Below are positions 18,424-36,414 of a stretch of DNA of 64,000 bases, in pieces (the first letter of the stretch is position 1; each line of letters starts with the position of its first letter). This stretch comes from Humisphaera borealis (GTDB taxonomy: Bacteria; Planctomycetota; Phycisphaerae; Tepidisphaerales; Tepidisphaeraceae). The stretch covers positions 2,914,001 through 2,978,000 of the forward strand of contig NZ_CP063458.1 of NCBI RefSeq assembly GCF_015169395.1, written 5' to 3'. The notes below the pieces were generated by a model. That model searched no databases, had not been told where the DNA came from, and worked only from the letters and a program-made list of their open reading frames with translations. Position numbers and translations under genes: made by a program.

Positions 18424-18451
18424 TTGATTGACCTCTCGCATACCGTACAAT
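18424..18451 (+). promoter_or_regulatory. sigma70-like promoter leading array A
   Basis: TTGATT (18424-18429), 16-nt spacer, TACAAT (18446-18451), inside an AT-rich patch (18439-18462) that matches the patch at 34606-34629 in 21 of 24 positions. It points toward the 13-mer array and the thioesterase gene. Confidence 0.55.
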
Positions 18452-18647
18452 ATACGAACAATATCGCGCCGAGGCAAGGTGTGTCTGAACGATTCGGGCG
18501 ACCGGGTCCCTGGCGACGACCCTGGGTTTCGACGGTGCTGCGGCCGTGGGAAGCGACTTTTATGCGCGAACTTCAGCACCAATGCGGCTGTCGATCGACG
18601 CGGGTGACGCGTGCAACGGTCAACTCGTGCAACGGCCAGACAAGCTC

Positions 18648-18880
18648 GGGTTCGTTCGGCCAACAAGCCGACGGCGCAGCGTACCCGCGGAGCCTCGGGT
18701 GCCGGATGTCGCCTCGGGTTCGTTCGGCAAATGGCGCGGGCGATTCGGTGTTCGACGTTCGATGTTCGATGTCGCCGGGTTCGTTGGGCGATGTCGGGCC
18801 GCGAACCTCGGACGGCGAACCCCCTCCCTATCCCTCCCCCGGAGTACCGGAGGAGGAAATGGATCTCGGGTTCGTTCGGC
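18648..18880 (+). repeat. Array A of the 13-mer GGGTTCGTTCGGC (4 copies)
   Basis: Copies start at 18648, 18716, 18777 (one mismatch, GGGC end) and 18868; spacing 68, 61 and 91 bp. Intervening DNA is not repeated, except that 18823-18857 matches the end of the palindromic element at 28939-29073. The rest of the 18212-18960 gap holds the hairpin and promoter described separately. Confidence 0.85.
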
Positions 18881-29432: not shown

Positions 29433-30863
29433 TCATTTCAACGTATCCCACTTCGCGATATTCAACGCTTCCGAAATAGACAGGCGTGCAAAGAAGAATG
29501 TATCGCTATTTTCGATCTTTGATCTCTCCCTCCCCGCCTCTACGGCATTACGAAGCTTTTCGACGTCCGCAATTCCAGTAATAGTTGCAAGCTTCTGAAA
29601 ATTTTTGTGCTGCGCTGCTCGAATAAAAAAAGTATGCCCTCGGCTGTAAGACGAGTATATTAGAGTCTGCGGCCACCATCGGACTTCAGGCTTAATAAAC
29701 GTCATGAGAAGAACGACCAATTCGGCCTCCATGATCCTATCAAACGGTAAGTCTCCACGATCGGCCTGTCGCCTAATCAACTCTGCAGCAGGGCTTCGAA
29801 GCTTTGTACCCGGCTCCGCAAGAACGCTGTCAAGCATCTTAGAATAACCATAAAAGACGTCAAAGTTGTCAAACTGCGCAGCTCCATGTTGCTCGTCGAG
29901 TGGGCGAAGATAATGACTGGCGAATACGTCGTGGAGAACTTCAAATGATTGTGCCTTAATCAGTGCGGCGACAATGTATAGAAACGTCTCGTAGACAAAT
30001 ATCGAGTGAGCTTCAAACCAGTGTTCGTTATATGATCGGAGCTCACTCGGCCGCGACTTCAATGCGCGCAACCTTTCGAGACAAAGCAGAAGCGACTCGG
30101 AAAAGTCCCCAGATGGGGAACTGCCCGCTTCCAGCAAGACCCAATCAACAATATGATTGCGCACCGACCGAAGTTTTCCGCAATCCGCCAGAATTAGTTG
30201 CGCCAGGTCGCCTTGGGGCGCTTTCCTGACGCGCAATGAATCAGCATATTCCATACATGAATCTAGAAAGTCTTGCCGGTATAGCTTTAATCCCGGTTTG
30301 GCATGCAGAATAGCCTGCCTAAAATTATGAAATTTGGCAATTGCCGGGCTAGAAGGCGCTTCGGTCTCAGTCAGATATGCCGGCACCTTCCCAATTGCGG
30401 GCTTAACATAGAATGGCTTTCCATATAAAACCCGAACAAGCTGCTCCCAGTTCTCGTTTACGGCCTCAGGTGTCGAGAAGTCAATCCACTTACGAGAGCT
30501 TACAAAGGTAGGAAGGCACGGCTCACCGCTTGGATCCTTCTCGCACACAACTGGAAGGAATTTTGACTGGTCAACTTTCTCATACACTTCCTTAGAAATT
30601 ATTTGGGACTCGGTCCCGACTCCGGATTTTCGTGAGTTCGCTTTCTCTGCGTAAGCTCTGTCGGAAAGAAGTAGTACATGGCTTATTGTAGCGTCAGCAA
30701 CCATCTTCTCCATGAAGGCAAACTTGTCCTGTCCCTCCTTAAAGTCGTAAATATCAAGTACAACATCAACACCATCCGCTATTAGGCGATCTGCCCATTC
30801 CTTCACGGTGGCTTGATGTCCAGGTGACGACCAGCTGTAAGAAAGGAAAACCTTTGGTGTCAT
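29433..30863 (-). CDS. TIR/SEFIR-domain protein, putative defence effector
   Basis: 476 aa. Residues 1-140 form a SEFIR/TIR_2-like domain: KVFLSYSWSSPGHQATVKEW, then DGVDVVLDIYDFKEGQD and HVLLLSDRAYAEKANSRKSG, with GTESQIISKEVYEKV holding the Glu expected for NAD cleavage in active bacterial TIRs. Residues 165-476 are an unrecognised all-helical region that could be sensor or oligomerisation module. The gene is visibly AT-richer than its surroundings and uses AT-ending codons, which points to horizontal transfer. It stands alone on the minus strand between a pseudogene and a decayed nuclease fragment, in an island with an IS element. Defence role is inferred from domain and context. Confidence 0.8.
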   Translation of the reverse strand: MTPKVFLSYSWSSPGHQATVKEWADRLIADGVDVVLDIYDFKEGQDKFAFMEKMVADATISHVLLLSDRAYAEKANSRKSGVGTESQIISKEVYEKVDQSKFLPVVCEKDPSGEPCLPTFVSSRKWIDFSTPEAVNENWEQLVRVLYGKPFYVKPAIGKVPAYLTETEAPSSPAIAKFHNFRQAILHAKPGLKLYRQDFLDSCMEYADSLRVRKAPQGDLAQLILADCGKLRSVRNHIVDWVLLEAGSSPSGDFSESLLLCLERLRALKSRPSELRSYNEHWFEAHSIFVYETFLYIVAALIKAQSFEVLHDVFASHYLRPLDEQHGAAQFDNFDVFYGYSKMLDSVLAEPGTKLRSPAAELIRRQADRGDLPFDRIMEAELVVLLMTFIKPEVRWWPQTLIYSSYSRGHTFFIRAAQHKNFQKLATITGIADVEKLRNAVEAGRERSKIENSDTFFFARLSISEALNIAKWDTLK

Positions 30864-31622: not shown

Positions 31623-32964
31623 GGTTCTTCTCCCATCTGCGGGGAGTGAAGGATAGGAATAGAGCAACGGCAGCCGCTGCGTATCTTGGAGTTACCAGGC
31701 TTCAAGACGCAGGAGGCTGCCGTTGTCGATCGAAGAACTTACCGCCCTCCTCGGCGGCTGGAAAGGCTATACGCTCGGGACCGTCGGACGCGTCGAACCC
31801 GGCCAGCACGGACCGACCCTTCCGGAAGTTCACCTGGAACTCCATCCCGTCCGCGACCACCCCCGCGTCTGCTCCGGCTGCGGCAAGACCTGTCGCTCGA
31901 TTCATGATACCGCTGAACGCTGGGTCGACGATCTGCCGATTTTCGACGCCATGACCCGGCTGCTGGTGCATCGCGTTCGCGTCGCCTGTCCGGACTGCGG
32001 GCCGAAGGTCGAGAAGCTCGACTGGCTGGAGCCCTACGCCCGCGTGACCACCCGCATGGCCCGCAGCGTCGCGCAGCTCTGCCGGGTGCTGCCGATCAAG
32101 CATGTCGCCGACTACTTCGGGCTGAACTGGAAGACGGTCAAGAAGATCGACAAGGCCTGGCTCACGCGTACGCTCGGACCGGTCGACCTCGACGGCGTGA
32201 CGAAGCTGGCGATGGACGAGTTCGCGATCCAGAAGGGTCATCGCTATGCGACGGTCGTGATCGATCCGAACTGCAAACGCGTGCTTTGGGTGGGCCGCGG
32301 CCGCAGCCGGGAGGAGGTCCGGCCGTTCTTCGAACTGCTCGGCCCCGAGCGTTGCAAACGGATCGTGGCGGTGGCGATGGACATGAACGCCGCGTACGAC
32401 CTGGAGGTGCGGGAACACTGTCCCAACGCCGAGGTGGTGTACGACCTGTTCCACGTCGTCGCCAAGTACGGGCGTGAGGTGGTGGACCGGGTCCGCGTGG
32501 ACGAGGCGAACAAGGTGAAAGACGACAAGCCGGCGCGGAAGGTGATTAAGGGCTCACGCTGGCTGCTGCTGCGAAACGCCGACAACATCGAGAAGGAGCA
32601 GGACCGGATCCGGCTGGCGGAACTGCTCAAGGCCAACCGCAAGCTGGCGGCGGTCTATGTGCTGAAGGACGACCTGAAAGAGCTGTGGTTCTACCGGCAC
32701 GTGGGCTACGCGAAGCAGTTCTGGGATGAGTGGTACGGCAGAGCGATCCGCAGCCGGATCGATCCGCTGAAGCGGTTCGCCGGGAAGCTCAAGGGATACT
32801 TGCCGGGGATCCTGAGTCACTGCCGATTCCCGTTGAACACTAGCGTGCTGGAGGGGATCAACAACAAGATCAAGGTGATCAAGCGGATGGCCTACGGGTA
32901 TCGTGACGACGCCTATTTCTTCCTCAAGATCCGCCAGGCGTTCCCCGGAGTTGGGAGATGAACC
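31623..32964 (+). mobile_element. Complete ISL3-family insertion sequence
   Basis: About 1342 bp with 26-nt terminal inverted repeats that match at 21 positions: left GGTTCTTCTCCCATCTGCGG, right end complement GGTTCATCTCCCAACTCCGG. It is flanked by a perfect 8-bp target duplication TTTCATTT (31615-31622 and 32965-32972), the length expected for ISL3. One transposase gene fills it. The intact repeats and target copies indicate a recent insertion. Confidence 0.93.
31723..32961 (+). CDS. ISL3 family transposase
   Basis: 412-aa DDE transposase. N-terminal zinc-finger-like region CSGCGKTCRSIHD with a second pair VACPDCGPK, then a helix-turn-helix (VADYFGLNWKTVKKIDKAWL). The DDE core begins LAMDEFAIQKGHRYATVV (first Asp), followed by VAVAMDMNAAYDLEVREHCP with VVYDLFHVVAKYG (second Asp region) and the C-terminal Glu in SVLEGINNKIKVIKRMAYGY. 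Length fits ISL3 (about 400-430 aa). The frame is intact, so the element is probably active. Confidence 0.95.
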   Translation: MSIEELTALLGGWKGYTLGTVGRVEPGQHGPTLPEVHLELHPVRDHPRVCSGCGKTCRSIHDTAERWVDDLPIFDAMTRLLVHRVRVACPDCGPKVEKLDWLEPYARVTTRMARSVAQLCRVLPIKHVADYFGLNWKTVKKIDKAWLTRTLGPVDLDGVTKLAMDEFAIQKGHRYATVVIDPNCKRVLWVGRGRSREEVRPFFELLGPERCKRIVAVAMDMNAAYDLEVREHCPNAEVVYDLFHVVAKYGREVVDRVRVDEANKVKDDKPARKVIKGSRWLLLRNADNIEKEQDRIRLAELLKANRKLAAVYVLKDDLKELWFYRHVGYAKQFWDEWYGRAIRSRIDPLKRFAGKLKGYLPGILSHCRFPLNTSVLEGINNKIKVIKRMAYGYRDDAYFFLKIRQAFPGVGR

Positions 32965-33324: not shown

Positions 33325-34488
33325 TCACACACTCTCAATCCCAAACCGCAACAACATCCTCGGCAACACATCATCCAACCGCTCGATCTCCGCGTCCCCG
33401 AGCTCGATGAGCCTCATCCCGTGCTTCGCGTAGATCGCCTGCTTCTTTGCCTTGCGGGCTCGGTAGGCGGGGTCCGATTCTCTTCCCCAGAACTCGATGT
33501 ACACGCCTTTGCCGCCGGTCCCGTGGCCGCCGGGGAGGTAGAAGTCGCAGTAGCACTCCTCCTCGATCGGCAGTCGGCGTTCGTACGCGTGTACCAGGCC
33601 CTGCATGTAGAGCCAGTTGTCGATCAGCACCTCCGCCCGGCTGCGCACCATGTGCCCGTCCTGCGTGCGGAACGTCGCCGGGAAGCGGGTGCGGAAATCG
33701 GCCGAGGCGTCTGTTGACGCGACGGGCGTCGCAAGCGGGGCCGCGCCGGCCCGGGTTGGGGCGGCTTTGCCGTTGGCGGTGGCGCGTTTTGCAGGGTCCG
33801 CCTCGCGGGCCGCGTCGGCCGACGGGGGCTCGGGCTTGCAGGCGGCTTCGGGTTCCGGGGCGGTCGCCACTTCCGCTGTCAATGCGGCCCCGCCGCCGGT
33901 CTGCTCGCCCACGCTCGAACCGAGCGCCTTGTTCGCCAGGATCGATTCCGGCCAGACGACGTAGGGCGTGCCGTTGCGCATCTCGCGGACGTTCGCGCCC
34001 AGCGCGTTGCCGGCGTCCGTCGGCACCCACCCTTTGACGTATTTCTCGACCCAGCCCAGCTCGGCGAGGATCAGGTTCATCTTGACGCTCGACAGGTTGA
34101 AGTGCCGGCCTAGCCGGGTGGACGAGAGCATGCCGGCGGGTGCCTGGTCTTCGGCGGGCTCGGGGGTGTCGGCGGTGGAAGTCGAACGGAGGGCCGAGCT
34201 TGAGCTCGGCGGTCCCGGGGGGTTGGAAGGGGCGCGCGATGCAGACGCCGGAGCCGAGCTTGAACTCGACGGTCCCGGGGGTGCTCCTGGGGGCGGTCCC
34301 GGGGACGTTCTCGGGGGCGACGGCTGGCGGCAAGTGTTGCACGCGGCTTGGCCGACCGGACGCCAGTGCCCGCACGCGGCGCAACGGACCAACTGGCCGT
34401 TGCGCTCGGCTTTCCAGTGATCGAGACAAAAAGCGTACCCTGCTTTGGTCACCCGTTGCCCGCACCCTGCCACCTGACATTCGTTCAT
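33325..34488 (-). CDS. Zinc-ribbon protein with PD-(D/E)XK-like nuclease domain
   Basis: 387 aa. Residues 1-55 have Cys/His pairs of two small zinc ribbons (CQVAGCG, CLDH, CAACGHW, CNTC). A low-complexity Pro/Ser linker follows. Residues 118-165 form a winged-helix-like module (STRLGRHFNLSSVKMNLILA then GWVPTDAGNALG). The C-terminal 110 residues have the order expected of a restriction-like fold: SRAEVLIDNWLY (Glu), EECYCDFYLPGG (Asp), VYIEFWG (Glu), then the helix RKAKKQAIYAKHGMRLIEL. Probably cuts or binds nucleic acid. Its 3' end is duplicated at 30938-31124. Confidence 0.75.
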   Translation of the reverse strand: MNECQVAGCGQRVTKAGYAFCLDHWKAERNGQLVRCAACGHWRPVGQAACNTCRQPSPPRTSPGPPPGAPPGPSSSSSAPASASRAPSNPPGPPSSSSALRSTSTADTPEPAEDQAPAGMLSSTRLGRHFNLSSVKMNLILAELGWVEKYVKGWVPTDAGNALGANVREMRNGTPYVVWPESILANKALGSSVGEQTGGGAALTAEVATAPEPEAACKPEPPSADAAREADPAKRATANGKAAPTRAGAAPLATPVASTDASADFRTRFPATFRTQDGHMVRSRAEVLIDNWLYMQGLVHAYERRLPIEEECYCDFYLPGGHGTGGKGVYIEFWGRESDPAYRARKAKKQAIYAKHGMRLIELGDAEIERLDDVLPRMLLRFGIESV

Positions 34489-34540: not shown

Positions 34541-34594
34541 TGTCGACAGGCATGCTGTCGACAAACACCGCGGCTGGCGGAATGCCGGCCGCGG
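34541..34594 (+). terminator. Paired hairpins before promoter of array B
   Basis: A palindrome TGTCGACAG/CTGTCGACA (34541-34563) is followed by CCGCGGCTGGCGG/CCGGCCGCGG (34568-34594) and then ATTTTTGTTGT on the plus strand, the shape of a rho-independent terminator. It sits just ahead of the array B promoter. Confidence 0.55.
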
Positions 34595-34601
34595 ATTTTT
34601 G

Positions 34602-34629
34602 TTGTCATACCGAACATTATACGTACAAT
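34602..34629 (+). promoter_or_regulatory. sigma70-like promoter leading array B
   Basis: TTGTCA (34602-34607), 16-nt spacer, TACAAT (34624-34629). The AT-rich patch 34606-34629 matches 18439-18462 in 21 of 24 positions. It points toward the array. Confidence 0.6.
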
Positions 34630-34788
34630 AAGTGCGCTGTCAAGGTCGTGACTGGCGCTGCGCTCGTGCCTTGGAGGCTGGTGGGTGTGATCCGTCTGGC
34701 TTTCGGGTCGACTCGCGATCGCAGAGTTGGGCTTGCGGTGTGGCGGCGTCCTTTTGCCCGGACTTTCGGCCCGGAGAATGACCGCCTC

Positions 34789-35358
34789 GGGTTCGTTCGG
34801 CACAAAGAGCCGCGCACGAAGTAAGCGGGAACGGCGCGACTTTGCGTTGACGTCCGCTCACTCAGTGCGCGGCGCTTGAACGGTCGTGCGGTTTCGGGTG
34901 ACGTGATTGAGGATGGGCGGTTGGAGGATTCGCGGCTTCTGGTGTGTGACGCACCTTGCACGGCTTGGAAAGCTGTGTCACGGACAGCTGTCAGGAGGTC
35001 GCCTTGGGTTCGTTCGGCGAACTAGCCGTTGGCGCAGCGTACTCGCGACGCCCCGGGTCTGGGCGCGATCTCGGGTTCGTTCGGCCAAATCGTGGGGACT
35101 GAGGATTGACGTCTTCTGGTGCGTGACGCACCTCGCACGGCTTGGAAGGTGCGTGTCACTGACGGGGTCGCTCGGAAGGAGGTTCTTGGGTTCGTTTGGC
35201 GACGTTGCCGTGGGTTCGTTTGGCAAAGTGGATGTTGGAGGACGGGCGGTTTCTGGTGTGTGGCGCACCTTTCACGGCTTGGAAAGCCTTGTCACGGACA
35301 GCCCATCGGGCGGATCGCCTCAGGTTCGTTTGGCGGAGTGGCGCTGGGTTCGTTTGGC
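34789..35358 (+). repeat. Array B of the 13-mer GGGTTCGTTCGGC (7 copies)
   Basis: Copies start at 34789, 35006, 35073, 35188, 35212, 35322 and 35346; the last four carry TTTGGC in place of TTCGGC. From 34937 the array is built from three degenerate longer units (34937-34988, 35113-35163, 35251-35302), each starting TTCTGGTG, containing GCACGGCTTGGAA or a variant and each followed by two 13-mers. The whole 34489-35421 gap is otherwise gene-free. Confidence 0.88.

Positions 35359-35421: not shown

Positions 35422-36414
<993 letters not shown>

Follow-up and report, generated by a model that had tools for sequence, protein, structure and literature searches.

The small dispersed repeats (SDRs) of Nostoc studied by Elhai and colleagues are reportedly very short sequences that appear to insert and to tandemise, and we know of no partner gene, promoter or leader for them. 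The antitoxin repeats of type III toxin-antitoxin systems are short tandem RNA repeats linked to a protein gene. In REPIN/RAYT systems, a short repeat is amplified in one genome and is found as well beside its presumed partner gene, as described in an excerpt of PMC3116915, which also names the SDRs of Nostoc.

Here we describe a 13-mer, GGGTTCGTTYGGC, that has been amplified in the genome of Humisphaera borealis (a single contig of 7,189,892 bases) and that is carried by arrays such as locus B, situated in the 64,000-nucleotide stretch of this genome that we analyzed (the window; positions below are window positions). Like a REPIN, this 13-mer was amplified in one genome and occurs beside a dedicated gene, but two defining features of REPIN/RAYT were lacking, since the 13-mer is nonpalindromic and the family of the gene is not a Y1 (HUH) tyrosine transposase; moreover, its copies stand in promoter-led, one-directional arrays. 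Thus, to judge from its sequences, the system resembles REPIN/RAYT in logic, as far as the excerpt of PMC3116915 defines it, and is not a member. With regard to SDRs, a comparison at the protein level showed extra segments at the 13-mers of one gene. In contrast to SDRs, a candidate partner gene, a promoter and a leader are all seen here. Unlike type III antitoxin repeats, the arrays lie away from the protein genes of the family, number about a hundred per genome and have variable spacing. In the open literature that we searched, nothing was found on the 13-mers or on the gene family, and the consulted part of PMC11266412 makes no mention of repeats.

Anatomy of locus B and the other arrays of the window

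The hairpins, the promoter and the seven-copy array that an initial annotation had proposed for locus B were all confirmed in the sequence. The locus starts with a perfect palindrome, TGTCGACAGGCATGCTGTCGACA (34541-34563, no strand assigned), and continues on the plus strand with a G+C-rich hairpin that precedes a T run (34568-34600), an arrangement that is terminator-like by sequence. Next comes the predicted promoter TTGTCA-16-TACAAT, with TTGTCA at 34602-34607, 16 bp and TACAAT at 34624-34629 (+), overlapped by an AT-rich patch, ATACCGAACATTATACGTACAATA (34607-34630, +), which indeed shares 21 of its 24 positions with the patch of locus A (18440-18463), as had been claimed. The leader (34631-34788, +) includes a hairpin box common to other arrays, GGGTGTGATCCGT (34683-34695), and gives way to the array itself (34790-35358, +), in which seven 12/13-mers point in a single direction. 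The 12-mer GGTTCGTTYGGC starts at 34790, 35007, 35074, 35189, 35213, 35323 and 35347; six of these seven copies are full 13-mers, and the one at 35323 reads AGGTTCG, without the first G of the 13-mer. The variant TTCGGC is found in copies 1-3, and TTTGGC in copies 4-7.

The 13-mers are interspersed with modules. A hairpin module made of the inverted repeat AAGAGCCGCGCACGAAGTAAGCGG / CCGCTCACTCAGTGCGCGGCGCTT (34805-34877, +) also occurs in several leaders among L052-L063, and module iii, of the AACAAGCCG..GCGCAGCGTAC..GCCCCGGGT type (35019-35073, +), was recognized by eye in locus A as well as at L004, L008, L013, L019, L023, L037, L056 and L058. Palindrome module ii is present in three copies (34936-35006, 35112-35188 and 35250-35322, all +), which correspond to the three larger units of the initial annotation. 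These TTCTGGTG units do exist, as three copies of 69 nt at 34920, 35097 and 35234 that are 65-88% identical to the first unit without gaps. It had been stated that two 13-mers follow each unit; units 2 and 3 are each followed by a tight pair 24 nt apart, but behind unit 1 another module separates the two 13-mers, which are 67 nt apart.

Growth of the arrays by unit duplication, as suggested previously, was clear at some loci, namely, L024 with ten identical 19-nt copies and L002 with three 117-nt units, but it could not be made out at locus B, the units of which fit an interspersed palindrome. By the bit scores of two identically scored blastn runs, unit 1 found matches at L045 and L055 as good as its own neighbor (76.0 and 75.3 versus 72.1 bits), L097 provided a better match for unit 2 than the neighboring units (65.7 versus 54.6 bits), and unit 3 was the only one closest to a local unit (72.1 versus 61.8 bits). 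Judged by these scores, each of the three units is a copy of an interspersed, genome-wide palindrome rather than a simple local duplicate. The proposed drift from TTCGGC to TTTGGC away from the promoter was borne out across the arrays read, with the T form in 11/67 first copies and 28/67 last copies (Fisher p = 0.002) when coding arrays, the homogeneous L024 and arrays with fewer than three copies were left out; an earlier, smaller count had given 14/60 versus 27/60 (p = 0.02). This drift can be read, among other ways, as decay from the distal end.

The gene upstream of the array, which had no Pfam match (33325-34488, minus), faces away from it, and galE (35422-36414, minus) adjoins it with its end, so that no gene downstream in the direction of the array could be its target. 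An ISL3-family transposase gene lies near locus B (31723-32961, +), and the window also encodes a SEFIR/TIR-domain protein of 476 aa (29433-30863, -).

Two further arrays were found in the window. Locus A (18440-18880, +) consists of the AT patch and three exact 12-mers, and locus C (51274-51756, -) of a patch (51741-51756), a leader RNA and six exact 12-mers; the leader of locus C matched our leader model R1 (see below) at 51589-51675 and was one of the 11 sequences used to build it. No match at the gathering score of Rfam 15 was obtained within the window. When the whole window was scanned for the repeat with 2 mismatches allowed, 30 matches were counted, against a mean of 20 (sd 5) in shuffles. 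This is not far above the shuffles, and it is the exact copies at the genome scale that are decisive.

Promoter-led arrays across the genome

The 7.19-Mb genome contained 508 copies of the 13-mer (297 forward, 211 reverse) and none of the control read backwards, while none of 245 further genomes from the phylum had more than 5. Likewise, there were 522 copies of the 12-mer here, against a maximum of 8 per genome among 60 relatives, in which the backwards control was about equally frequent. These counts indicate that the expansion of the 13-mer is species-specific among the genomes searched. The 12-mer was absent from the only other genome listed for the genus, a 65% complete bin, and from ten arbitrary 20-kb regions of the H. 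borealis genome that were chosen without regard to the repeat. Pairs of 13-mers outside this genome were found in four stretches from four genomes (Coriobacteriales, Pseudolabrys, Isosphaeraceae and Collinsella), the form used to scan the genome contigs being one that omits most of the genome's own copies. In the alphaproteobacterial Pseudolabrys bin, three GGTTCGTTYGGC with TTGGGTTCGTTYGGCCAA flanks lie in about 110 bp (L042:7255-7309). Neither the 13-mer pair nor the patch with the leader box was found in virus contigs.

We read 76 arrays with 403 copies in 85 stretches of the genome (970 kb), most of which were chosen for holding 13-mers, such that the densities of arrays and copies in them are those of nonrandom samples. 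All arrays were one-directional, as 0/403 copies were opposed within 300 nt. The starts of consecutive copies lay between 18 and 410 nt apart, with maxima at distances of 19 (33 cases), 23-24 (86 cases) and 30-31 nt (15 cases), and the extended consensus of the 13-mer was CTYGGGTTCGTTYGGCRR. A CRISPR array was rejected on account of these variable gaps and of modules that recur between loci, in place of near-constant repeats and spacers and unique spacer sequences. The possibility that the flanks of the 13-mer pair into a hairpin was rejected as well, since 301 distinct copies gave no strong mutual information between the two sides, and by inspection GGGTTCGTTYGGC has neither self-complementary arms nor attC arms. 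By dividing the 522 twelve-mers by about 5.3 per array, we estimated that the genome holds ~100 paralogous loci of the order promoter, leader and 13-mer array, locus B among them.

The association of the AT patch with the arrays was evaluated with three forms of the patch, drawn from the same arrays, over 600 nt upstream. Six loci with 13-mers in coding sequence were dropped, as were arrays with less than 600 nt of upstream or 500 nt of downstream flank, which reduced the 76 arrays to 70. Within 2 mismatches, the patch was present upstream in sense at 53/70 arrays, upstream in antisense at 1/70 and downstream at 0/70. Aligning 40 sites on the patch revealed a conserved predicted promoter that corresponds to TTGTCA-16-TACAAT of locus B, TTGCAA-16-TAACATATACCGTACA (TTGCAA, 16 bp and TAACAT), with base frequencies of T 0.93, T 0.85 and G 0.88 in TTGCAA and of 0.95-1.0 per base in TAACAT, and a conserved ATACCGTACA behind TAACAT. 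In a forward test on 13 further patch sites, 11 had an array in the same sense 144-412 nt downstream; the misses were L069 and L079, and the absence at L069 was already implied by the genome-wide count of the 13-mer.

The leaders form a family in which one hairpin carries the box GGGTGTGATCYGT and a second hairpin ends in GGTCTGGTTT or a similar sequence. In 11 aligned leaders, the common structure paired 97.5% of the cells, compared with at most 49.6% for slid versions, although the RNAalifold structure was derived from the same 11 sequences and is thereby biased in its favor. The covariation score was 0.332 versus 0.256 for shuffled alignments and was reached in 0/500 of them, and 5 pairs were altered on both sides where 2.4 were expected from the shuffles, a number reached in 2/500. 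Model R1, built from these leaders, matched 25 places in this genome and none in 80 relatives, and the search added four loci (L090, L092, L094 and L097), at all of which segments between 13-mers were read; locus B holds the leader box yet is not among the 25 places. The leader is a candidate new structured RNA present at 25 places in one genome, and promoter and leader together suggest that the arrays are transcribed. Rfam searches at E values up to 1 returned 14 matches in L016, L022, L023, L037, L055 and L063, none of which was taken as the leader. At L063, two copies of a group II intron lie close to an array, one on each strand.

Among the segments of at least 40 nt between copies (164 in total), 114 from 56 arrays fell into one linked group and the others into small groups. 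Palindromes among these segments were also found at 149 places in 907 kb outside the arrays. Module ii, CACGGGCTGGAAGCCCGTGTCAC, flanks a Y1-transposase gene on both sides in inverted orientation (L068, G000:C1:3416068-3416292), which by its layout is a classical RAYT-REP arrangement in a planctomycete; 11 Y1 matches were found in the genome, and of the four compared (L065-L068) this was the only one with array modules, namely, module ii. Given the genome-wide occurrence of module ii and its position around that gene, the larger units described initially are, as read from these data, REP-type passengers of the arrays. They are of the same general sort as the GTAG/CGTC-tagged REPs treated in the consulted part of PMC3733652, from which they differ in role, being passengers of arrays here.

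A gene family with the 13-mer in its coding tail

At six of the loci read, 13-mers lie inside open frames, always in the sense of the frame. An acetyltransferase frame (Pfam Acetyltransf_1, 5.1e-9) stays open with seven 13-mers, and a membrane protein has two 13-mers in two extra segments that are absent from nine homologues, one of which has an insertion of its own at the second place. The remaining four coding loci turned out to be paralogues of one gene family, for which a genome search yielded 11 members. Exact 12/13-mers were present in the 3′ coding tail of 10/10 close paralogues, while the eleventh and most divergent member (L109, 34% identity) had no 13-mer. Around the family genes, with up to 4 mismatches allowed, the only trace of the AT patch was one weak site at L108.

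The family protein has the motif GPxTxxGKxxSxxNAxxHG. It matched no Pfam entry, Y1_Tnp included, and no NCBIfam entry, and domain and profile searches revealed no recognizable nuclease or recombinase domain. A profile search against PDB gave weak matches only, the best of which (14-3-3, E 0.13) was judged to be due to chance.

Homologues of the family were detected in 14/100 relatives. At 27 of their loci, the pattern AAACRAACCC, which was chosen after inspection of these same loci, occurred 28 times sense-downstream, once in antisense and never upstream (within 900 nt), compared with a mean of 0.07 and a maximum of 2 in mononucleotide shuffles. It was present at 17/27 loci, from 9 genera and 4 families; of the ten loci that lack it, three are truncated by the end of a contig. 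The pattern falls in the coding tail in G249, G265, G266 and G260 and past the stop codon in G279, G324, G142 and G320, and the strand of the core in the relatives' genes is opposite to that in this genome. In 231 kb of G249, G324, G265 and G279, AACGAACCC was found 6 times, 3 of them at a family gene; the motif is not amplified in the sampled stretches of the relatives. Two distant family relatives are located on plasmids; that of Planctomyces sp. SH-PL62 (L170, 3581) carries the motif with one mismatch, AATCGAACCC, on the sense strand of its tail, and the cyanobacterial one has no motif downstream. The family protein had no match in virus contigs and no relative in phage records.

Possible origins of the arrays

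With the core in the tails of 10/10 close paralogues here and at 17 loci of relatives, the gene family and the repeat point to a putative, hitherto unrecognized gene-and-repeat partnership. Our preferred reading, to which we give slightly less than an even chance, is that the 13-mer serves this uncharacterized family as a companion site and was amplified as a nonautonomous micro-repeat in promoter-led loci. The family gene would bear the site at its own 3′ end; the site would have multiplied in this lineage as a tiny nonautonomous repeat, in promoter-led intergenic transcription units and occasionally in genes; and the arrays would then have grown by tandem duplication and by the uptake of REP-type palindromes. 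Recognition of DNA would be likelier than recognition of RNA, given that the gene reads AAACRAACCC on its sense strand in the relatives and the reverse complement here. Taken together with the genome-wide amplification in one species, the conserved link between family and motif and the change of strand between lineages suggest that the family protein reads a DNA site. Against this reading, no mobility was seen, either as a polymorphic site or as an empty orthologous site at the DNA level. Also weighing against it are the lack of a recognizable nuclease or recombinase domain, the ten loci of relatives and L109 that lack the motif, the choice of the pattern after inspection, the absence of amplification in the sampled stretches of the relatives, the lack of a match to model R1 in 80 relatives and the near absence of the patch around the family genes. 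A bolder form of it, which we regard as possible while leaning against it, would make the family a widespread active partner that reads a short nonpalindromic sequence, RAACGAACCC, kept at its gene's 3′ end, and would define a new class of micro-mobile DNA, the site having escaped here to produce ~100 promoter-led arrays and in-frame copies inside genes.

The main rival to a DNA site is a system at the RNA level, which we consider unlikely: the arrays would be ~100 noncoding RNAs that bind the family protein through repeated, hairpin-spaced copies of single-stranded GGGUUCGUUYGGC, and the motif in the mRNA tail would serve autoregulation. CsrB is a precedent for a sponge-type RNA, and sigma70-type promoters of their own, the structured leader, 13-mers spaced by hairpins and the strict sense orientation in this genome, in arrays and coding cases alike, would also fit an RNA role. 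However, the mRNA strand of the relatives carries AAACRAACCC, the complement, such that one family would have to read two RNA sequences; in addition, there is no covariation across the 13-mer, and ~100 sponge genes would be extravagant. The tandem runs, perfect in the ten 19-nt copies of L024 and seen also in the 117-nt units of L002, and the drift of variants along the array would be expected if a promoter-led family of loci had been duplicated by neutral satellite growth with no partner, the 13-mer being a slippage-prone spacer and its match to gene tails a side effect. We find this distinctly improbable, as it leaves unexplained why the same core stands behind the same family in 9 other genera with a 28:1 strand bias and in 10/10 paralogues here. 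Still less probable, in our estimate, is an integron- or cassette-like array with the 13-mer as recombination site and the hairpin modules as exchangeable noncoding cassettes behind a leader promoter; the single direction, the leader-proximal promoter and the modules of similar length reordered across many loci agree with it, but ordinary genes would not fit into such short segments, and the modules at 149 places in 907 kb outside the arrays mark them as interspersed palindromes in their own right.

If the pairing of family and 13-mer is real, it would provide a first functional handle on a multicopy protein family without annotation and, in addition to REP/RAYT, a second independent case of a tiny repeat long retained beside a dedicated gene. 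The system is directly testable, as it involves one protein, one site of 10-13 bp and a clear strand prediction.

Two minor observations concern the surroundings of these loci. L021 and L036 share a transposase-like stretch of about 1.1 kb that is 99.6% identical and lies among arrays at L021. The clades of the family with 13-mers in the coding tail (L105-L107, L108 and L099-L104) differ in the palindrome modules found within or just past this tail, and these are the same modules as in the arrays.
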